A stretch of 41,127 nucleotides of DNA from a virus: positions 1 to 41,127 of IMG/VR virus record IMGVR_UViG_3300009152_000085; one strand, written 5' to 3'. Position 1 is the stretch's first letter. Each line of letters opens with the position of its first letter. The notes beneath the pieces were generated by a model. The model saw nothing but the letters and a program-made list of their open reading frames with translations, made no database searches and was not told the origin of the DNA. This document shows, one piece after another, positions 6,864-17,819 of this stretch. A program made the position numbers and the translations under genes.

Positions 6864-6917
6864 AACCGGGCCAGGCCCGGCGCCTTCTATATAGCACTAT
6901 AGTTAGCACTATATAGG
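6864..6917. repeat. Intergenic element copy 1 (GC palindrome plus dyads)
   Basis: A GC palindrome (CCGGGCCAGGCCCGGCGCC, about 6867-6885) is followed by CTATATAGCACTATAG (6887-6902) and TTAGCACTATATAG (6903-6916). It lies between the 3' ends of convergent genes and lacks the GCCAA/TTGGC and TTGACA parts. Confidence 0.7.
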
Positions 6918-7014
6918 GGCGGGGGAGATTTATATATTATAGCATCTTTTTTTTCCTGAGCAGTATAATTAAAATTATAAAGAAAAGGAACAGTTGAAAT
7001 TCCAAGGGGAAAAT

Positions 7015-7041: not shown

Positions 7042-7809
7042 TTAGGCAGTTACCAACTCGGGCTTGAGGTCAACGGTGAGGTTGAGACCCGCGAACGGGT
7101 CAAGGATGCCGTGCAACGCTTGACTCCGCTTGGGCAACGCGATCAGGTTCCCTTTGTAAACCTGAGTGAATGCGTTGTGAAGACTCCAGAGGTTGCGCGG
7201 GGCGAACTCCTCATGAAGAGGCTTTTCCCATTGGTCAAGAACGTCGGCAATCATAGTTTTGCCAACCGCGCCAGCACGATAGCCGCGCAGGATAAGAGTG
7301 CCCGCCTCGTCATCGGTCAACGGGGTTGCCTCATACTTAGCTACGCGCGTAGCCTGCTGGTTCCACATATCGGACAGCGCACCAATTCCACGCGAAACGA
7401 TTTGCGGTAGGTCGCGCAGCACGTTGCTAGTGTGACGGCGAGCAAAAACAATTTCGTTGTGGAAAACAAGGTTGGAGCAGACAAACGGAGCATTGCCAGC
7501 GCAGAAGCCAGCGGGGAAGCATTTGTCGTGCGAGTTGCGCAAACCAACAACGGTGCCAGACGAGCCAGCGCGCCCCATGTCCACCTCGAAAAGACCAAAG
7601 TAACGTTGACCGAAGCGAGCGGTCGTGTGGATTTCTTGCTTGATAGCAAGGTTCGCATTTTTCATTTGGTCGCGGAAAATCGAAACGAGGTCAGCGTGAG
7701 GGATCGGCTGATACGTTTCGGTAGCGTTAGGAGTCGAAACCTTGGCGAGATTGGCAAGGCTGATTTCGGAGTTGTCTGCACCGCAGACACGCAAGTTGAT
7801 AGCATTCAT
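7042..7809 (-). CDS. DUF932 family phage/plasmid-like protein
   Basis: 255 aa. VVGLRNSHDKCFPAGFCAG, then FVCSNLVFHNEIVFARRHT and LRDLP, is the pattern of DUF932 proteins found in phages and plasmids; their biochemical role is not settled. The N-terminal part includes PHADLVSIFRDQM and the motif QRYFGLFEVDMGR. It is the distal gene after the 65-aa gene at 7869 (59-nt gap), probably co-transcribed from the promoter at 8073, and has its own terminator at 7015. Confidence 0.85.
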   Translation of the reverse strand: MNAINLRVCGADNSEISLANLAKVSTPNATETYQPIPHADLVSIFRDQMKNANLAIKQEIHTTARFGQRYFGLFEVDMGRAGSSGTVVGLRNSHDKCFPAGFCAGNAPFVCSNLVFHNEIVFARRHTSNVLRDLPQIVSRGIGALSDMWNQQATRVAKYEATPLTDDEAGTLILRGYRAGAVGKTMIADVLDQWEKPLHEEFAPRNLWSLHNAFTQVYKGNLIALPKRSQALHGILDPFAGLNLTVDLKPELVTA

Positions 7810-8135: not shown

Positions 8136-8267
8136 CAATTTTCGTGCCAACTGAATTTTAATTCGTACTTGGCATGGAAATTTATTTACGAAAAGTGCTT
8201 GACAGGGGGGGGCGCCGGGCCTGGCCCGGATTGTATATAGCGCTATATATAATTTTATATAGCGCTA
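8136..8267. repeat. Intergenic element copy 2 (complete)
   Basis: GCCAA-N18-TTGGC (8146-8173), then 25 nt, TTGACA (8199-8204), GC palindrome GGCGCCGGGCCTGGCCCGG (8211-8229), and dyads TATATAGCGCTATATA (8234-8249) and TATATAGCGCTA (8256-8267). It lies upstream of the promoter at 8073 and beyond the 3' end of the 8292 gene. Confidence 0.85.
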
Positions 8268-10135: not shown

Positions 10136-10242
10136 ATCAATTTCTGTGCCAACGTTATTTTTATTTGCGTTTGGCATGGAATTTTATTTGGAGAAAAGGC
10201 TTGACAAGGGGCGCCGGGCCTGGCCCGGTTTGTTTTTTTTTC
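10136..10242. repeat. Intergenic element copy 3
   Basis: GCCAA-N18-TTGGC (10148-10175), 25 nt, TTGACA (10201-10206), then GGCGCCGGGCCTGGCCCGG (10210-10228) followed by a T-run instead of the TATA dyads. On the plus strand, palindrome plus T-run could act as a terminator. It lies between the divergent RNA gene and GP88 gene. Confidence 0.85.
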
Positions 10243-10310: not shown

Positions 10311-11012
10311 ATGGCCAAAACGCTTCCTCTACTTGCTAGCAATTCAGACGCGAAAACCTCAAAAGGGTTTGCGCTTAGATACTTGACGGACATTCTTTAC
10401 CTCGCTCCAGCAAACGAGGGCGGGTTTGGAAATTTGTGCCCTAACGCTTCGTTAGGCTGCTTAGCTTCCTGCTTGTTTACTGCGGGGCGTGGGCGAATGA
10501 GCAACGTGAGGCTCGGGCGCATTCGGAAAACGCGGCTTTTCTTTACAGATAAAAAAGCGTTCTCTGAGCAACTGTTCAAAGACATTGCTCGGGGCATAAA
10601 GCGTGCGGCCAAACTTAGTCTCGGCTATTGCGTGCGGCTGAACGGGACAAGTGACATTCCTTGGGAGAGGCTCGGCGTCTTCGAGAAATTTCCCGACGTG
10701 CAATTTTACGACTACACGAAAAGTTTTTCCCGTGCGATCACGCACGCCAACGGGCAAATGCCCAAAAATTATCACTTGACTTTTTCGCGTTCGGAAACGA
10801 ATAGCGAACAATGCGCGCGAGTGCTTGCGGCGGGCGGTAACGTTGCGGTCGTTTTTGCTTCTTCAAACTACCCCGCCGCTTGGCAAGGTTTCAAAGTTGT
10901 CTCGGGCGACGATACTGATTTGCGTTTTCTAGACGAGAAAAATGTTGTTGTTGCGTTGTATGCCAAGGGCCAAGCAAAGAAAGATCCAACTGGTTTTGTC
11001 GTTGCAACGTGA
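10311..11012 (+). CDS. GP88-family protein, copy A
   Basis: 233 aa from the ATG at 10311. The frame is open further upstream, but homology to copy B at 16313 and the promoter at 10277 both place the start here. Family features: SNSDAKTSKG at the start; three cysteines (43, 50, 54) before CLFTAGRG; VRLNGTSDIPWERLGVF; FYDYTKS; NYHLTFSRSE; GGNVAVVF; GDDTDLRFLD; TGFV at the end. This is the pattern of the phage GP88 family (named after mycobacteriophage gp88), biochemical role unknown to me. The Cys cluster may bind metal. Its stop overlaps a GTG starting a 26-aa membrane microprotein. Confidence 0.85.
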   Translation: MAKTLPLLASNSDAKTSKGFALRYLTDILYLAPANEGGFGNLCPNASLGCLASCLFTAGRGRMSNVRLGRIRKTRLFFTDKKAFSEQLFKDIARGIKRAAKLSLGYCVRLNGTSDIPWERLGVFEKFPDVQFYDYTKSFSRAITHANGQMPKNYHLTFSRSETNSEQCARVLAAGGNVAVVFASSNYPAAWQGFKVVSGDDTDLRFLDEKNVVVALYAKGQAKKDPTGFVVAT

Positions 11013-11089
11013 AACGCTTTATTTTTCCCTTGCTTTTATTCGTTGTAATTCTCGTAGTGCTTTTTTCCAAAAGGTCAAGACAAAAATAA
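11009..11089 (+). CDS. 26-aa membrane microprotein A
   Basis: 26 aa, starting at a GTG that overlaps the GP88 stop (GTGA), so translation is probably coupled. Structure: MKRFIF, a hydrophobic helix PLLLFVVILVVLF, then a basic tail SKRSRQK. An equally long protein with the same FPLxLF helix start and basic end follows the second GP88 copy (17014). Recurrence of length, topology and motif at both loci supports a real gene despite its size. Function unknown. Confidence 0.6.
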   Translation: MKRFIFPLLLFVVILVVLFSKRSRQK

Positions 11090-11110
11090 AATGAATTAAT
11101 ATGCCCGTTT

Positions 11111-11148
11111 GTGCATAGCGCTATGCACACACCGGGCCCGGCCCGGTG
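11111..11148. repeat. Intergenic element copy 4 (short, reversed order)
   Basis: The perfect 18-bp palindrome GTGCATAGCGCTATGCAC (11111-11128) comes first, then CACCGGGCCCGGCCCGGTG (11130-11148). It lies between convergent 3' ends and may end transcription from both sides. The parts are in the reverse order of the other copies. Confidence 0.75.
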
Positions 11149-11226
11149 GCTTTTAAAGTTTTTGCACGAAGCAAGATTAAAATAAAACTCATGCGCGTTA
11201 ATGATGCCGCGCCCCATCATGGAAAA

Positions 11227-11643
11227 TCAATACTCTGCTCGGGTGATTTTGCTGCCAAGCCCCTTGGCCAATTCATAGATGTGGTTGAGATTGACTTCAC
11301 GGCGTTGGCCCTTGTTGTTCACGGCAGTGGCGTGACCACTGACGAAGCGAATGTTCTCATTGCCAATTTCTTGCAGAACCGCGACCTCTTCATCCGCAAG
11401 ATGCAGACTAAGCTCTTCCATAAAGTCAATGTCAATACCAACGTCTTCATCGTTTCCGTCAGCATCCTTTTTAATTTCCCATCGGTGGTTTGGAACTCCG
11501 TCCTCAAACAAAATTCCGATTGTGCCTTCAGTTTCATGGACAATCTTGTCCAGTCCAACGAGTTGTTTAATCCATTTGTTAAACGCATCAACATCTTTGA
11601 CGCGGAAATAATTTGTGCGGGCCATGCTAGTGTATGTTGCCAT
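11227..11643 (-). CDS. Conserved small phage protein
   Basis: 138 aa; a second start, MARTNYFRVKD at 11625, is also possible. NYFRVKDVDAFNKWIKQL at the start, LSLHLADEEVAVLQEIG in the middle and VSGHATAVNNKGQ near the end form a pattern common in phage and plasmid proteins of unknown function. Only a weak promoter (TCGCAA, 16 nt) fits before 11643. It lies downstream of the 11666 gene and may be read with it. Confidence 0.75.
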   Translation of the reverse strand: MATYTSMARTNYFRVKDVDAFNKWIKQLVGLDKIVHETEGTIGILFEDGVPNHRWEIKKDADGNDEDVGIDIDFMEELSLHLADEEVAVLQEIGNENIRFVSGHATAVNNKGQRREVNLNHIYELAKGLGSKITRAEY

Positions 11644-11665
11644 GTTATTATTTGTGATTTATTTT

Positions 11666-11974
11666 TTATTTATTGCGAGACTTTTTGGGAGTAACGAAGG
11701 AGACGCAGCGAACACGAAGTTTATGCTCGGCGCGTTCAGCTCGCGTTACGGCAGCGTCATACATATTGGTAACGTGGTCAAAGGTTTTTTTTAAGATTCT
11801 GAATTGTTCTTCGGCTTTATCGGCGCGGTCTCTGTTCGCAATAAATAGCTCTAAGTAATGCGCGGCCCACTTGCTTTCGTTATCGCAATCCAAACGGAGT
11901 TGGTTGCGCTCAGCAATAACGACTTTCAAGCTCTCCCAAATGGCGGGCTGAAGTTTTTGTGATTTTGTTTTCAT
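11666..11974 (-). CDS. Coiled-coil hypothetical protein
   Basis: 102 aa from the ATG at 11974, placed 7 nt after a leaderless promoter. The longer frame to 12127 overlaps the neighbouring gene. Residues about 20-90 are rich in Glu, Arg, Ala and Leu (RDRADKAEEQFRILKKTFDH, then AAVTRAERAEHKLRVR), predicted coiled coil. No recognised domain. Confidence 0.7.
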   Translation of the reverse strand: MKTKSQKLQPAIWESLKVVIAERNQLRLDCDNESKWAAHYLELFIANRDRADKAEEQFRILKKTFDHVTNMYDAAVTRAERAEHKLRVRCVSFVTPKKSRNK

Positions 11975-11981
11975 GTTATTA

Positions 11982-12009
11982 ACAATAGCAGAGTTTTTAT
12001 TGATTGCAA
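11982..12009 (-). promoter_or_regulatory. Leaderless promoter
   Basis: On the minus strand: TTGCAA (12009-12004), 16-nt spacer, TATTGT (11987-11982), then 7 nt to the ATG at 11974. The sequence AAATAAGTC precedes the -35. Confidence 0.8.
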
Positions 12010-12012
12010 GAC

Positions 12013-12192
12013 TTATTTTACTTTGATGATGCGATCTTTGTTGGTAGCGAGTTGAGCTTCCCAAGCGGCAACAATTGAATCGACTGCAAACTTGTGCTCG
12101 TCTTCTGTTAGTCGCATAGCAGCGCAAGCCTCGTCAAGCTCAAAGACAAGATTGCCGATTTGAATGCCAGTGATGTGTGTTTTAGAGTTCAT
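12013..12192 (-). CDS. Small hypothetical protein
   Basis: 59 aa, beginning MNSKTHITGIQIGNLVFELD and ending ATNKDRIIKVK. It has a short beta-type start and a long acidic-basic helix (EACAAMRLTEDEHKFAVDSI). Its own leaderless promoter (12200-12227) is 7 nt upstream, and the stop lies 3 nt before the -35 of the next promoter, so it is a single-gene unit. No recognised domain. Confidence 0.65.
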   Translation of the reverse strand: MNSKTHITGIQIGNLVFELDEACAAMRLTEDEHKFAVDSIVAAWEAQLATNKDRIIKVK

Positions 12193-12199
12193 ATTTAAA

Positions 12200-12227
12200 A
12201 CAATGACTTATTTTTTAATGAGGGCAA
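12200..12227 (-). promoter_or_regulatory. Leaderless promoter
   Basis: On the minus strand: TTGCCC (12227-12222), 16-nt spacer, CATTGT (12205-12200), then 7 nt to the ATG at 12192. Confidence 0.8.
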
Positions 12228-12235
12228 GACTTATT

Positions 12236-12595
12236 TTAAATTTGAGCGTAGATTTTTTTGCCGTGAATAGCAACGTAGCGGGCATTTTTAATTGGCGACC
12301 CATCTTTTGCAAGCACAAAAGTTGAGAATTTGTAAGGGTTGTAAGTTACCTCAACAGAATTCTCGGGGATAATTTGAGTAATTCCTGTGTGCAGGTAGCT
12401 GTTCCAATCGCCGCTTACCCATGCGTGAACGTTCTTGCGCCGATTCTTCAGCACTCTCTGCCGCCCCGCTTCGCTAACGTGGAACGTGGGGTTGTCAAGA
12501 GCAATCGCGGGAGCGTGAGCAACAACTTTCCCACCCACTCGCACCGATAACATTTTCGCCCGAAGGTTGAAGTAGACTTGTGTTTTGAGTTTCAT
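12236..12595 (-). CDS. Conserved phage protein (VYFNLRAKMLSVRVGGKVVAH type)
   Basis: 119 aa. The motifs VYFNLRAKMLSVRVGGKVVAH at the start and VSEAGRQRVLKNRRKNVHAWV in the middle recur in many phage proteins of unknown function. The Arg/Lys-rich central segment suggests nucleic-acid contact, but that is inference. Single-gene unit with its own leaderless promoter. Confidence 0.75.
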   Translation of the reverse strand: MKLKTQVYFNLRAKMLSVRVGGKVVAHAPAIALDNPTFHVSEAGRQRVLKNRRKNVHAWVSGDWNSYLHTGITQIIPENSVEVTYNPYKFSTFVLAKDGSPIKNARYVAIHGKKIYAQI

Positions 12596-12602
12596 GATTA
12601 AA

Positions 12603-12630
12603 ATTCTGATTAAAAAATGACGAGACGCAA
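12603..12630 (-). promoter_or_regulatory. Leaderless promoter
   Basis: On the minus strand: TTGCGT (12630-12625), 16-nt spacer, CAGAAT (12608-12603), then 7 nt to the ATG at 12595. Confidence 0.65.
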
Positions 12631-12693
12631 CAACAAAATAACGAAAAACAAAAGAATAAATACGAAATAGTAAATACGTTAATAGTAAATAAG

Positions 12694-12797
12694 GCTTGAC
12701 AGCCCCAAGATTGGGGAATTTTCCCCACCCCCACCGGGCCAGACCCGGTATACAATTGTATATAAGCTATATACAACCATATATAAGCTATATAGTT
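12694..12797. repeat. Intergenic element copy 5 (partial)
   Basis: TTGACA, then a CCCCAAGATTGGGG hairpin, ACCGGGCCAGACCCGGT (12733-12749), TGTATATAAGCTATATACA (12757-12775) and CATATATAAGCTATATAG (12779-12796). It lacks GCCAA/TTGGC, and its dyad core is AAGCT instead of AGCGCT. Confidence 0.8.
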
Positions 12798-12881
12798 TCG
12801 GTGGTGTTTAATGAAGGGCAAAAAAACCTCCCCATGCCGCAAATTCTCTTTGCGTACTATTCCACCGAAAAATTGATATAG

Positions 12882-13103
12882 TTAGCCGTGGGCTAAGCAG
12901 TCTTCTTTATATACTACGGAACTCTCGTTTACTTCGCGAAGATATTCCGCCATTTCTTCGCTAGTGCATTTGCGCATATAAGAATTTGGCCAACCAACCA
13001 AATCCTCGCGATGAAAAGAGGTCGCGCAAACGCGCGGCCCCGTTGCAATGACGCGCTCAACTCGGCGCGTGATAGTATTGTACCACAGTTGTCCGTTTTT
13101 CAT
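12882..13103 (-). CDS. Small hypothetical protein, paralogue of 13794
   Basis: 73 aa from the ATG at 13103, which overlaps the stop of the hydrolase gene as ATGA; the longer frame uses a TTG inside that gene. NGQLWYNTITRRVERVIAT and TSEEMAEYLREV align with GYLYFHLANARVERIVKV and TPEEIANYLRK of the gene at 13794, so the two are paralogues. Coupled to a lysis-type hydrolase; own function unknown. Confidence 0.7.
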   Translation of the reverse strand: MKNGQLWYNTITRRVERVIATGPRVCATSFHREDLVGWPNSYMRKCTSEEMAEYLREVNESSVVYKEDCLAHG

Positions 13104-13525
13104 TTGTAGAATATATGATTTCCGATTTTCGTTGTATATGCAAGTTTTTTCGCCCAACTAGGGGAAACTTTTTCGGCGTGGTAATGAGTCGCGCCGTTTG
13201 TATAATTTGATTTATTTTTGACTAAAGTTAAAGCCTCGCGCCATTTGGGATGACGTTTGGCAATTTCAATTCCTCGCTCAGTAGAAACTTTATTCCAACA
13301 CGAGAATTGTTTTGGAGCTAAGCAAACGGAAATTTCCGTTTTATTCTTTGCTCGGTTGGCGATAACTTCGCGAACCGCTGCCATTGCGCGGGCGTCGCTC
13401 TCTCCGCCCGCTTCCAAGATAAGAGTTGCCGCAACGATTTCCCGAGCGGAGATTTCCACCTTGTCGCTTTGCGCGTTTAAAGACGAAACTAAAAAAGTAA
13501 AGGCAAAGAAATGTTTGAGTTTCAT
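13100..13525 (-). CDS. Exported SleB-like cell wall hydrolase
   Basis: 141 aa. Residues 1-18 (MKLKHFFAFTFLVSSLNA) are a Sec signal peptide, predicted cut before QS. The body matches the SleB/Hydrolase_2 family: AATLILEAGGES with candidate catalytic Glu38, AMAAVREVIANRAKN, APKQFSCWN, GATHYHA (His114, His116), PSWAKKL and GNHIFYK at the end. SleB-type enzymes cleave peptidoglycan; here it is probably the endolysin, exported by Sec rather than released by a large-hole holin. It is the middle gene of the 13734-12882 operon, away from the candidate spanin at 4353. Confidence 0.85.
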   Translation of the reverse strand: MKLKHFFAFTFLVSSLNAQSDKVEISAREIVAATLILEAGGESDARAMAAVREVIANRAKNKTEISVCLAPKQFSCWNKVSTERGIEIAKRHPKWREALTLVKNKSNYTNGATHYHAEKVSPSWAKKLAYTTKIGNHIFYK

Positions 13526-13533
13526 GAGATTAT

Positions 13534-13734
13534 TTACTTAACTCCGAAACAAGCTGATTCGGCGTAAATTTCCGCACTCTCTTCCATTTTCACAAGCTCG
13601 GAATTGAGTTTTTGGCGAAACGCAAGGGCGTGCTCGGGGCTAACGTCAACAGGGAGGCAAAATTCGATATGACGGAATAGCAGGCTTTCCATCGCCGCTT
13701 TGATGTAAACATCTTTGATTTGGTTTTTATTCAT
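13534..13734 (-). CDS. Small hypothetical protein, 65-aa family
   Basis: 66 aa. MNKNQIKDVYIKAAMESLLF and the late SAEIYAES align with the 15419 protein (MNKQQLQATYLAQRVKLFAE, then AETFAEKFS), so the two appear to be paralogues. First gene of the operon with the hydrolase, 8 nt before it, driven by the promoter at 13742-13769. Function unknown. Confidence 0.7.
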   Translation of the reverse strand: MNKNQIKDVYIKAAMESLLFRHIEFCLPVDVSPEHALAFRQKLNSELVKMEESAEIYAESACFGVK

Positions 13735-13741
13735 GAGACAG

Positions 13742-13769
13742 AGTATGGTGATTTTTTTTAAAAAAGCAA
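13742..13769 (-). promoter_or_regulatory. Leaderless promoter of the hydrolase operon
   Basis: On the minus strand: TTGCTT (13769-13764), 16-nt spacer, CATACT (13747-13742), then 7 nt to the ATG at 13734. Confidence 0.75.
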
Positions 13770-13793
13770 GATTTATTTTCGCTTTTTTTATTT

Positions 13794-13991
13794 TTATTTT
13801 CTGAGGTAATTCGCGATTTCCTCGGGAGTTGCGCGGCGAAAATCTTTCGCTACTGAAACGTTGGCGAGCAAACCGACCGACGATTTGTGGTGGCGGTGTT
13901 CTACTTTTTCGCCGCTTACCTTGACGATTCGTTCAACGCGAGCGTTAGCGAGGTGAAAGTAGAGGTAACCTTTTGTGATTTTATTTTCCAT
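13794..13991 (-). CDS. Small basic hypothetical protein
   Basis: 65 aa, paralogue of the 12882 protein (shared ARVERIVKV/RRVERVIAT and TPEEIANYLRK/TSEEMAEYLREV). The middle is His/Lys-rich (GEKVEHRHHKSSVG). Single-gene unit with a leaderless promoter 6 nt upstream and element copy 6 beyond it. Confidence 0.7.
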   Translation of the reverse strand: MENKITKGYLYFHLANARVERIVKVSGEKVEHRHHKSSVGLLANVSVAKDFRRATPEEIANYLRK

Positions 13992-13997
13992 GCCCTG

Positions 13998-14025
13998 AAG
14001 ATAGCAGAAAACTAATTGCGCACAA
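13998..14025 (-). promoter_or_regulatory. Leaderless promoter
   Basis: On the minus strand: TTGTGC (14025-14020), 16-nt spacer, TATCTT (14003-13998), then 6 nt to the ATG at 13991. Confidence 0.75.
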
Positions 14026-14051
14026 GTTTTATTTCGTTTATTTTAAAAAAG

Positions 14052-14186
14052 AATTCTCATGCCAAGTGATTTTTAATTCGCAGTTGGCACGCAATTTTAT
14101 TTTGAAAAAAGTTCTTGACACGTATCCGCCGGGCCCGGCCCGGATTGTATATAGCACTATATAGATTTGTATATAGCGCTATGTAT
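14052..14186. repeat. Intergenic element copy 6 (complete)
   Basis: GCCAA-N18-TTGGC (14061-14088), 26 nt, TTGACA (14115-14120), GC palindrome (about 14128-14143), dyads TATATAGCACTATATA (14148-14163) and TATATAGCGCTAT (14170-14182). Confidence 0.85.
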
Positions 14187-14205
14187 TATTTTTTATTTAA
14201 AAATA

Positions 14206-14526
14206 TTAGATTGCGCCCGTGCGAGCGCAAACCGCGCTTGCTCGGATGTTGGCAACGGTAGCCGATTGAAAATTTGAGCCTTGCGCTCGCAAGTCGCGCG
14301 GAGGCTTAGAAGAAAACAAACCGCGCCCAAACATCTCGTCCCATACTTTGGGCGTCGTGCCCGTCATTACAAACTCGCGCTCGCCTGCGCTAAGAAGGGG
14401 AAAAGCGTCTTGCACCAAAGTGCCGTTTTCCCATGCGCGCGACGCGGCGATAAATTCGTCTCGCGTCATTGGCAAATCCATTTGATAAATTTTTCCGTTA
14501 AATTGGCAGCGTTTGGTGAGTAACAT
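14206..14526 (-). CDS. Conserved phage protein (MTRDEFIAASRAWENGTLVQD type)
   Basis: 106 aa. YQMDLPMTRDEFIAA, WENGTLVQDAFPLLSAGEREF, and MTGTTPKVWDEMFG form a motif set found in many small phage and plasmid proteins of unknown function. The C-terminal 30 residues (LRAQGSNFQSATVANIRASA) are not part of that pattern. Single-gene unit with its own leaderless promoter. Confidence 0.75.
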   Translation of the reverse strand: MLLTKRCQFNGKIYQMDLPMTRDEFIAASRAWENGTLVQDAFPLLSAGEREFVMTGTTPKVWDEMFGRGLFSSKPPRDLRAQGSNFQSATVANIRASAVCARTGAI

Positions 14527-14533
14527 GATAGAG

Positions 14534-14561
14534 ATAATGTTGATTTTTTTGTTTCGCGCAA
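14534..14561 (-). promoter_or_regulatory. Leaderless promoter
   Basis: On the minus strand: TTGCGC (14561-14556), 16-nt spacer, CATTAT (14539-14534), then 7 nt to the ATG at 14526. Confidence 0.8.
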
Positions 14562-14587
14562 GGTTTATTTTAAAAGAAACGAAAGAT

Positions 14588-14824
14588 TTATTTCGTGAAT
14601 TCAGAGTTGGCGAACGTCACGTCAGACGCTGCGTCAAGAAAGTAAGCGGCGCGGGCTGCGTCATCGGCGAGGCGGTCGTTTTCGGCGCGGTGAATAAGCG
14701 CCCGCAGGTCGCAAATTACAGAGTCAAGGCGAACGTCAATGCCGTCGCCTAGTTGCTGCTCGCGCAACGCGCTTAAAACGAGGGAGGCTTCATCGACTGA
14801 CATTAGGAGGTGAATAGGATTCAT
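14588..14824 (-). CDS. Small acidic hypothetical protein
   Basis: 78 aa, mostly helical and acidic (MSVDEASLVLSALREQQLGD, then LRALIHRAENDRLADDAARA). No recognised domain. Single-gene unit: leaderless promoter 7 nt upstream, element copy 7 beyond it. Confidence 0.7.
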   Translation of the reverse strand: MNPIHLLMSVDEASLVLSALREQQLGDGIDVRLDSVICDLRALIHRAENDRLADDAARAAYFLDAASDVTFANSEFTK

Positions 14825-14831
14825 GAGACAA

Positions 14832-14859
14832 AGAATGATAGTTTTTCGCGTGCGGTCAA
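14832..14859 (-). promoter_or_regulatory. Leaderless promoter
   Basis: On the minus strand: TTGACC (14859-14854), 16-nt spacer, CATTCT (14837-14832), then 7 nt to the ATG at 14824. Confidence 0.8.
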
Positions 14860-14892
14860 CTTTTATTTTTAATTATTTTAAATTATTTTCGG

Positions 14893-15075
14893 GACAATTC
14901 TCATGCCAACTCATTTTTATTCGCACTTGGCACGGAAATTATTTTTGATTTTTTTGCTTGACAGGCACCCGCCGGGCCGGGCCCGGATTGTATATAGCAC
15001 TATATACTTTTTGATACAGTGCTGTATGTAGTTTGATAAAGCGCTATGTAGTTTTCTACATAGCGCTATGTAGTT
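14893..15075. repeat. Intergenic element copy 7 (complete, extra dyads)
   Basis: GCCAA-N18-TTGGC (14904-14931), 26 nt, TTGACA (14958-14963), GC palindrome (about 14971-14986), then four dyads in a row: TATATAGCACTATATA, GATACAGTGCTGTATG, an AAAGCGCTATGTAG half-site and CTACATAGCGCTATGTAG, ending about 15073. Confidence 0.85.
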
Positions 15076-15079
15076 TTAT

Positions 15080-15379
15080 TTATCGCCCTCTATTGCAAGC
15101 GAAGTTGGAAATTTGCGCGAGATTAAAGGATTTGTAAGCGTGACCGTCAACGGCGCTTTCTCCAGAATCGTTATTGGTTTTAACGGTAACAAACTCCTCT
15201 CCGTTTTTAGACGTTACGATGCTGCGCGAGGAATGCACGCCCCATGCTCGCTCCCCGAAAGGGAGATAACCCACGACGCCATTGCGACGCGAGACGGTTC
15301 CATCTTTCTTTGTGTAGTCGAAGGCGACAATGGCAGCGCCGTTTTTGACGATTTTTTCAATTTGTTCTTTGAGGTTCAT
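15080..15379 (-). CDS. Small hypothetical protein
   Basis: 99 aa. A short helix (MNLKEQIEKIVKNG) precedes a predicted beta-rich part (AIVAFDYTKKDGTVSRRNGV, then EEFVTVKTNN). AFDYTKKDGTVSRR resembles small phage beta-barrel proteins, but I cannot name a family. Its promoter (15386-15414) is one of the few here with an exact TTGACA. Confidence 0.65.
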   Translation of the reverse strand: MNLKEQIEKIVKNGAAIVAFDYTKKDGTVSRRNGVVGYLPFGERAWGVHSSRSIVTSKNGEEFVTVKTNNDSGESAVDGHAYKSFNLAQISNFACNRGR

Positions 15380-15385
15380 AATGTA

Positions 15386-15414
15386 AAAGTGTTTTTAAAA
15401 CGTTAAGGTGTCAA
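15386..15414 (-). promoter_or_regulatory. Leaderless promoter
   Basis: On the minus strand: TTGACA (15414-15409), 17-nt spacer, CACTTT (15391-15386), then 6 nt to the ATG at 15379. Confidence 0.75.
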
Positions 15415-15418
15415 GGTT

Positions 15419-15616
15419 TTATTCCGCGTTTTTGTCGGAAAATTTTTCAGCGAAGGTTTCGGCATCACGCTCAAATTCAGCGAAGCTGTCGGAAAGCCAT
15501 TTTCTAATAGCCTCGTGATGTTCGAACGGAACTAGCGCGCTAGTGATAGGGCCAAATTCAGCGAACAGTTTGACACGTTGGGCGAGGTAAGTAGCTTGTA
15601 ATTGTTGTTTGTTCAT
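15419..15616 (-). CDS. Small hypothetical protein, 65-aa family
   Basis: 65 aa, helical (MNKQQLQATYLAQRVKLFAE, then HHEAIRKWLSDSFAEFERDA). It aligns with the 13534 protein over its length and with the C-terminal half of the 7869 protein. Single-gene unit with a leaderless promoter. Function unknown. Confidence 0.7.
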   Translation of the reverse strand: MNKQQLQATYLAQRVKLFAEFGPITSALVPFEHHEAIRKWLSDSFAEFERDAETFAEKFSDKNAE

Positions 15617-15623
15617 TGGGGAA

Positions 15624-15651
15624 AGTATGTCTGTTTTTTTGCTTTGTGCAA
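15624..15651 (-). promoter_or_regulatory. Leaderless promoter
   Basis: On the minus strand: TTGCAC (15651-15646), 16-nt spacer, CATACT (15629-15624), then 7 nt to the ATG at 15616. Confidence 0.8.
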
Positions 15652-15668
15652 GTTTTATTTTAAAAGAA

Positions 15669-15716
15669 TCAAAAGATTTTTTTAGCTAACGTCGTGATAA
15701 TGTTTTTGTTTTCCAT
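15669..15716 (-). CDS. 15-codon micro-ORF or gene remnant
   Basis: MENKNIITTLAKKIF, 15 aa, sits exactly where a gene should start behind a complete leaderless promoter and element copy 8. MENKN is also the start of the protein at 17138. It is either a true micropeptide or what is left after a cassette lost most of its gene. No other ORF is served by this promoter before the 15616 gene. Confidence 0.4.
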   Translation of the reverse strand: MENKNIITTLAKKIF

Positions 15717-15723
15717 GTAACAG

Positions 15724-15751
15724 AGAATGACAGAAATTCTCGTGCGGTCAA
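15724..15751 (-). promoter_or_regulatory. Leaderless promoter without a full gene
   Basis: On the minus strand: TTGACC (15751-15746), 16-nt spacer, CATTCT (15729-15724), then 7 nt to the ATG at 15716. Confidence 0.7.
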
Positions 15752-15785
15752 CTTTTATTTTCGTTTTTTTTTATTTATTTCGCGC

Positions 15786-15898
15786 ACAATTCTCGTGCCA
15801 AGTGCATTTTCTTTTTCGGTTGGCATAGAACTTTTTTTCGCTTTTTTTCTTGACAGCACCCGCCGGGCCGGGCCCGGTTTTATCGCCTTGTCAAGCTT
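15786..15898. repeat. Intergenic element copy 8
   Basis: GCCAA-N18-TTGGC (15797-15824), 25 nt, TTGACA (15850-15855), GC palindrome (15861-15877). There are no TATA dyads; instead TTGTCAAG follows at about 15888-15895, so CTTGACA and TGTCAAG flank the palindrome symmetrically. The T-rich stretch 15899-16060 beyond it holds a second GTCAAGCTTTTT copy but no ORF. Confidence 0.85.
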
Positions 15899-16060
15899 TT
15901 TTTTTATTTTTTATTTAAATTTTTTTCTTGACTTTTTTTATTTTCGCGTCAAACTTCGCGCAATTTTTCGCAACGCGAGAAAAAACGTGTCAAGCTTTTT
16001 AATTCGCACAAAATGATTTTTTATTCTTTTTTTTTCGGCACAGTGTGCTAGTTTATCGGC

Positions 16061-16294
16061 ATGAAAAATATTTTAAATTTTCGCGATGGGTTCTCAATCG
16101 AGGTGGACGTTTTCGGCAACGTGCAAGGGTGGGAGAACCTAGGCTACGTGAACAGTTTGCCACAAGCGGACACAAACGCGTTATCCTTGCGCACCAAAGG
16201 AAAAAAAGAGTATCGTTCTAATCGTTCGCGTAACGTTGACCTTTTTATTTGCCCGCAGGAAAAGCTTACTTACATAGTTGACTCGTCTGGCTGA
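16061..16294 (+). CDS. Small hypothetical protein upstream of GP88 B
   Basis: 77 aa. MKNILNFRDGFSIEVDVFGN starts a beta-rich N-terminus; the middle is basic (LRTKGKKEYRSNRSRNVD), and the end is FICPQEKLTYIVDSSG. A TAGTTT element with an upstream TG 7 nt before the ATG may be a leaderless promoter. It ends 18 nt before GP88 copy B. No recognised family. Confidence 0.6.
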   Translation: MKNILNFRDGFSIEVDVFGNVQGWENLGYVNSLPQADTNALSLRTKGKKEYRSNRSRNVDLFICPQEKLTYIVDSSG

Positions 16295-16312
16295 TTTCTT
16301 TTTTATTCTCTC

Positions 16313-17002
16313 ATGAAACTCAATCTCTTATCCGTTGGTAACGACGCCAAAACAAGCAAGGGCGAGGCGTTCGGTTGGCTCACCGCGATTCTTTACCTTG
16401 CGCCCGCGCGTCAAGCAGGTCGTGGCGAAGTGTGCGCGCATCGTTCAGTAGGTTGCACGCTGTCGTGTCTTTACACCGCTGGTCGTGGGAAAATGTCTAA
16501 CGTTAAGAAGGCGCGCATTCGGAAAACGCAACTGTTCTTTGACGATTTCGCAACGTTTAACGCGTTACTAATGGCAGACATTCGTGCGTTCGTTGCGTAT
16601 TGTGAAAAACAAAAGATGCGCGCTTGCGTGCGCTTAAACGGAACGAGCGACATTTCTTGGGAACGTCTCGGAGTGTTCGCCGCGTTTCCTTCTGTTCAGT
16701 TCTATGATTACACCAAGTCGCCTATTCGTGCGTTACAATTCGCAAGGGGTGCAATGCCAACGAATTACCATTTGACCTTTTCACGTAGCGAAGGCAATGA
16801 AGTGTTAGCCTTAGACGTGTTGCGTGCTGGTGGTAACGTTGCGGCTGTATTCGCAAACGCATTACCTGAAACGTGGAAAGGTTTTAAAGTTGTCGATGGC
16901 GACAAAAGTGACTTGCGATTCGCAGACGCGCGCAACGTTGTCGTTGGTTTAAAAGCAAAGGGTGACGGAAAAAAAGATTTGACAGGATTCGTTATTCAGT
17001 AA
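16313..17002 (+). CDS. GP88-family protein, copy B
   Basis: 229 aa, aligned with copy A (10311) along its full length: VGNDAKTSKGEAFGWLTAIL at the start, Cys 41, 48 and 52 before CLYTAGRG, VRLNGTSDISWERLGVFAAF, FYDYTKS, NYHLTFSRSE, GGNVAAVFA, GDKSDLRFAD and TGFV. The copies are clearly divergent, so this is not a recent duplication. A TTGACT at 16278 with 16-nt spacing may be its own promoter, but the -10 is weak, so it may be read from the 16061 gene. Followed after 11 nt by a 26-aa membrane microprotein. Confidence 0.85.
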   Translation: MKLNLLSVGNDAKTSKGEAFGWLTAILYLAPARQAGRGEVCAHRSVGCTLSCLYTAGRGKMSNVKKARIRKTQLFFDDFATFNALLMADIRAFVAYCEKQKMRACVRLNGTSDISWERLGVFAAFPSVQFYDYTKSPIRALQFARGAMPTNYHLTFSRSEGNEVLALDVLRAGGNVAAVFANALPETWKGFKVVDGDKSDLRFADARNVVVGLKAKGDGKKDLTGFVIQ

Positions 17003-17013
17003 GGGAAAATCTA

Positions 17014-17094
17014 ATGACCTCAGAACTTTTCCCCCTCGTCTTATTCTTTTTAGTCTTGTTCGTGCTACTAACAAACAAACGGAAAAAAAAATGA
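17014..17094 (+). CDS. 26-aa membrane microprotein B
   Basis: 26 aa: MTSEL, then the hydrophobic helix FPLVLFFLVLFVLLT, then NKRKKK. It has the same length, FPLxLF helix start and basic C-terminus as microprotein A at 11009, and the same place directly after a GP88 gene. AGGGAAAATCTA upstream may serve as the ribosome site. Confidence 0.6.
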   Translation: MTSELFPLVLFFLVLFVLLTNKRKKK

Positions 17095-17450: not shown

Positions 17451-17819
17451 AAAAATCGCGGACCGTTTTTGCCGGGCCTTCGGGGGGGGGTGGTATTTAG
17501 TTCGCTCTACTACCATTTATACCATTCTAATTCTCTTCTTCCCCTCTCTACGCCTTCTTTACTATGCTATAAAACCCTATCTTAACCCCAAAGCCTCTTA
17601 AAAGAGGCGTTACCTCTTGGTGAAAACAAGAGACACTAACATAATGGATAATAACAAAACAATCATTAACCAATCTGATTCGGCGCTTCTCTTCTTCACG
17701 AAGATCTTTACACTACCCCCTCCCCATTTATAGAAAATGGGAGAAATGACCCAATCTTTTTCTGCTTCACGAACCGGGAACCGGGGAGACCCCCTCTAGT
17801 TCACCTTTAATATGGAAGA
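17451..17819. other. Gene-free boundary region with hairpins
   Basis: It separates the accessory region from the minus-strand gene block. Two perfect hairpins stand together, GCCTCTTAAAAGAGGC and CTCTTG/CAAGAG (about 17590-17632). A CCCATTT/AAATGGG pair lies near 17720-17745. A 29-codon ORF (17644-17733) has no convincing promoter. It could be an RNA gene or long untranslated ends, but no same-strand promoter-terminator pair is visible. Confidence 0.4.

Follow-up and report, generated by a model that had tools for sequence, protein, structure and literature searches.

Membrane microproteins encoded behind GP88 genes in a group of phages

The membrane peptide encoded directly after GP88 in a group of related phages is very probably the product of a real, so far undescribed gene, on which two independent clades show purifying selection. 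A dedicated partnership with GP88 does not have to follow: at an even balance of confidence, we prefer to regard the peptide as an autonomous small effector in the membrane, co-expressed with GP88.

GP88 genes in the window and the ORFs behind them

The window, a viral contig of 41,127 nucleotides from IMG/VR, encodes a T4-type terminase, PhoH, a RuvB/clamp-loader-like ATPase, DUF932 and a cell-wall hydrolase, in addition to two GP88 genes. Behind these genes the first-pass annotation had described two ORFs of 26 codons, each with a hydrophobic helix and a basic tail, and the sequences read as it had claimed (Table 1). The GTG start of microprotein A overlaps the TGA stop of GP88 A, as GTGA, and 11 nt lie between the stop of GP88 B and the start of microprotein B. 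A PHROGs HMM search matched neither microprotein, such HMMs being weak at 26 aa.

Table 1. Positions of the GP88 genes, microproteins and associated elements in the window
Feature	Position	Strand	Description	Family or context
Third basic-tailed TM microprotein	6937-7005	-	22 codons, TTG start; LEFQLFLFFIILIILLRKKKML	Follows DUF932 and a terminator-like hairpin
DUF932-like gene	7042-7809	-		Followed by a similar microprotein
Repeated intergenic element	10147-10228	+	TGCCAA-N18-TTGGCA, TTGACA, CGCCGGGCCTGGCCCGG	Upstream of GP88 A
Stretch absent from L371	10230-11642		About 1.4 kb, limits approximate	Present in window
GP88 copy A	10311-11012	+	233 aa, pI 9.7, basic	PF17338
Microprotein A	11009-11089	+	26 codons, GTG start, one TM helix, basic C-tail; reads VKRFIFPLLLFVVILVVLFSKRSRQK, then stop	
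GC palindrome	11132-11146	+	CCGGGCCCGGCCCGG	43 nt past microprotein A
Cell-wall hydrolase	13100-13525	-	Own signal peptide	Orthologue occupies the microprotein's place in L004
Repeated intergenic element	15796-15877	+	Same element	Precedes the 16061-16294 ORF and GP88 B
GP88 copy B	16313-17002	+	229 aa	PF17338
Microprotein B	17014-17094	+	26 codons, ATG start, one TM helix, basic C-tail; reads MTSELFPLVLFFLVLFVLLTNKRKKK, then stop	

Both GP88 genes are clear members of the GP88 family (Pfam PF17338, phrog_1617). Copies A and B matched PF17338 with E-values of 7e-47 and 5e-48 and scores of 160.7 and 164.4 bits, compared to a gathering cut-off of 24.4, and the matches spanned positions 9-228 and 2-228, respectively, of the 230 in the model. 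The two proteins are 60% identical to each other. The family description gives no function and includes no microprotein, whereas the GP88 genes of the window have one; a literature search found no paper naming PF17338.

The AlphaFold model of GP88 is confident (mean pLDDT 93.8) and has an alternating alpha/beta fold, which we read as barrel-like. Its best PDB fold matches were barrels, including NifB and viperin, and were weak (E at least 0.09, TM about 0.3), while structure matches in BFVD were mostly to other GP88 proteins. Two cysteines, C41 and C52, are invariant and C48 nearly so, giving a spacing of C-x6-C-x3-C, and one family member only produced a match to DUF5131 (E 0.0018). We considered and rejected a radical SAM enzyme: the CX3CX2C spacing is absent and the fold matches are weak.

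The nearest lineage to GP88 A is L083-L088 (78-79% identity). The closest relatives of GP88 B are those of L373-L375 (86%), apart from an identical copy in L371, a phage that is 99.4% identical to the window across long stretches. No other relative examined carried two GP88 genes. L371 lacks a stretch of the window that contains GP88 A, microprotein A and a convergent ORF of 138 aa (11227-11643), so that, between this near-identical pair of phages, gene and peptide are either both present or both missing, as one block. A second indel between the two covers window positions 12909-13096, and most of the ORF at 12882-13157 is missing in L371.

An intergenic element recurs five times on the plus strand, at window positions 8145, 10147, 14060, 14904 and 15796. 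It consists of an inverted repeat (TGCCAA-N17/18-TTGGCA), about 25 nt, TTGACA and a palindrome of the CCGGGCC-x-GGCCCGG type, and could be a promoter, operator or terminator, or else a recombination boundary. Further palindromes lie at 6866, 11132 and 12734; the one behind microprotein A possibly marks the end of a transcription unit. Rfam and tRNA scans of the window returned no matches.

Conservation and selection within the phage group

The phage group comprises relatives gathered via GP88 and its neighboring genes, and these share a common gene order. Behind 16 of its 17 distinct GP88 loci (15 of 16 in the count of relatives, plus window copy A) lies a hydrophobic, basic-tailed ORF that is 22-31 codons long and has its start at -8 to +11 nt relative to the GP88 stop. 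Related phages inside the group do, then, carry the ORF that the first-pass annotation expected of them. Its emphasis on a length of exactly 26 codons holds for both window copies and throughout copy B's clade (seven sequences, counting both window copies), but the closest GP88 relatives of copy A have 22-codon peptides and other loci have peptides of 28-31 codons.

Substitutions in these short ORFs are unevenly distributed. The peptide of window copy B differs from that of L375 with a pS of 0.75 and a pN of 0.28 (p = 9e-4), and the independent pair L085 and L088 gave values of 0.83 and 0.30 (p = 4e-4): synonymous change is higher in both pairs, rather than equal to non-synonymous change. The GP88-linked peptides are also mutually alike beyond their composition and architecture, with a mean z of 2.4 versus about -0.3 for unrelated TM peptides.

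These data bear on whether the peptides are genes at all. They could be chance hydrophobic ORFs in AT-rich intergenic DNA, and both strands of the window together hold 23 TM mini-ORFs, most of them presumably spurious. When downstream DNA was shuffled, however, a TM mini-ORF appeared at the peptide's position in only about 1% of cases; the conservation, the constrained position and the selection in independent clades argue in the same direction. Chance is already contradicted by the selection test and is a highly improbable explanation, and the annotation's argument that the recurrence is not accidental is borne out by the shuffles, the orthologues and the selection.

The ORF overlaps or almost touches the GP88 stop, as it would if it were a C-terminal membrane anchor added to GP88 by programmed frameshifting, with no separate protein being made. 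Orthologous peptides, however, start at offsets of -8, -4, +4 and +11, which place them in differing frames relative to GP88, and they are conserved from their own start codon. The peptide is therefore translated from its own start and not as a tail of GP88; given the differing relative frames we reject a frameshift extension, to which we give next to no credence.

Linkage to GP88 and to other genes

Adjacency to GP88 is almost invariant within the group and the spacing is tight, as might be expected if the microprotein recruited GP88 to the membrane or regulated it, the two forming the two-component unit that the first-pass annotation had proposed. The joint presence or absence of GP88 A and its peptide fits such a partnership, as does the excess of TM mini-ORFs behind GP88 over the shuffle expectation. 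The recurrence, conservation and tight adjacency on which the proposal was built thus stand, but exclusivity to GP88 does not: the same genomes have a similar peptide behind DUF932, the nearest sister phages (lineage L383-L399) have a GP88 gene with no TM mini-ORF behind it, and enrichment outside the group is modest or not significant. GP88 itself is also strongly basic (net charge about +12.6 at pH 7), so it is unlikely to dock by charge onto the basic tail of the peptide, and no fused GP88-TM protein was found among 135 GP88 proteins. We regard a dedicated partnership as a minority possibility.

The first-pass annotation had suggested a scan behind GP88 genes at large, and its outcome differed between the inside of the group, where nearly every locus has the peptide, and the outside. 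Among 119 GP88 clusters from outside the group, 14% had a TM mini-ORF behind GP88, compared to 6% for genes of 100 aa or longer (p = 0.009) and 10% for genes of 200 aa or longer, the latter difference not being significant. The GP88-wide association is strong relative to shuffles and ORF-end controls, but outside the group it is weak or not significant relative to long real genes. No comparable basic-tailed TM ORF lies directly behind GP88 in six INPHARED GP88 phages (HMO-2011, Bylgja, TRX32-1, Tinybot, HTVC309P and CRP-6).

At 10 of 13 distinct loci in the same phages, DUF932 is followed by a basic-tailed TM peptide about 21-25 residues long, which is under purifying selection in the relatives (pS 0.64, pN 0.24). 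Similarity between the DUF932- and GP88-linked peptides is weak, but still suggestive: 21% of pairs have z > 2, versus 1% of controls. The existence of a similar, selected peptide behind DUF932 in the same genomes points to a function that is not tied to GP88. In L159 (L004), DUF932 (11682-12416, minus strand) also has a TM peptide immediately behind it, MIETMLVLFFVLTLILLLKPPPPKK, although the GP88-linked peptide is missing there.

The relatives contain two further conserved TM microproteins near a gene for a NIF-like phosphatase. A 29-codon TM ORF at window positions 17610-17699 (minus strand; VKKRSAESDWLMIVLLLSIMLVSLVFTKR) has similar ORFs in L373, L374 and L375 (..DWLII.LIL..) and is likely to be another microprotein. 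A 33-aa microprotein, MKFDSKSEKFQFILMVLAVIADIALIINIIHHW, occurs at L374:2561-2662, L378:3121-3222, L376:3784-3885 and elsewhere, and is strongly conserved (pooled pS 0.75, pN 0.11); it was not found in the window. A more ambitious and decidedly tentative proposal is that the basic-tailed, single-pass membrane microproteins of the group form a dispersed and so far undescribed family. Its members, coupled to GP88 or located behind DUF932, would all be copies of a single ancestral microgene and would act as interchangeable membrane effectors traveling with gene cassettes.

Our preferred reading, the autonomous effector, does not make the peptide an obligate subunit of GP88. Each ORF would encode a microprotein of about 26 residues that crosses the inner membrane once, with a short N-terminus, a hydrophobic core of 15-16 residues and a Lys/Arg tail that the positive-inside rule predicts to be cytoplasmic. 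Judging from the stop-start overlap or, elsewhere, the close spacing that would permit re-initiation, it is probably co-translated with the preceding GP88; with translation coupled in this way, the peptide would be made when GP88 is made. Its helix may then act on the bilayer or on a membrane protein of the host, and the peptide would be one of several of its kind at the ends of early transcription units in the group. Two considerations count against the autonomous reading: a dedicated partner would be expected to produce just the near-perfect linkage to GP88 that is seen inside the group, and the DUF932-linked peptides may be merely convergent in form.

A possible connection to lysis

The only hint of lysis comes from L004, whose GP88 is 77% identical to GP88 B and has no free peptide behind it. 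In its place, about 13 nt past the GP88 stop, starts a PF07486 hydrolase of 150 aa that carries a TM segment at its N-terminus; the window hydrolase, which we assigned through this orthologue, has its own signal peptide and is encoded 2.1 kb away from GP88 A, on the opposite strand. The peptide could accordingly be a membrane component of the holin, antiholin or pinholin type, though very small, and set the time at which a secreted cell-wall hydrolase lyses the cell. Homology of the L004 TM segment to the peptides is suggestive only, however, with a best p of 0.04, uncorrected and not significant given the number of comparisons, and we take the arrangement as a hint of lysis that does not amount to evidence for a fusion. 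All other lysins carry their own signal peptides, in the other relatives the lysin is encoded on the opposite strand, away from the peptide, and 26 residues is far below the size of known holins. The adjacency to an endolysin in a lysis cassette that marks holins and pinholins was seen neither in the window nor in relatives other than L004. We consider an accessory role in lysis improbable and prefer an autonomous effector both to it and to a dedicated GP88 partner.

Significance and comparison with known systems

Genes of 22-31 codons fall below the usual limits of annotation. Position, frame independence and selection nevertheless make it very probable that this one phage group has several genuine membrane peptides of such a size, which provide short, testable candidates with a constant neighbor gene. 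For the GP88 family the peptide is the first conserved genomic neighbor, in this group.

The peptides share with holins, pinholins and signal-anchored endolysins the character of a small membrane component, and the anchored hydrolase of L004 sits at the same place. Known holins are much larger than 26 residues; the window peptide is correspondingly smaller, and it is not beside a lysin. Type I toxin peptides (the Ibs, ShoB, TisB and Fst class) are some 19-33 residues long, with a single hydrophobic helix and a charged end. The GP88-linked peptide is similar in size and has the same single helix and charged end, but it is coupled to a larger gene, overlapping or abutting GP88, and no type I antitoxin or toxin RNA was matched by Rfam in the window. 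KdpF, CydX, MgtS and AcrZ are small bacterial membrane regulators that consist of one helix and bind membrane proteins. Although the peptides described here are encoded by phages, and their neighbor GP88 is not a membrane protein, they resemble these regulators in having one helix of comparable size and in being encoded beside other genes.
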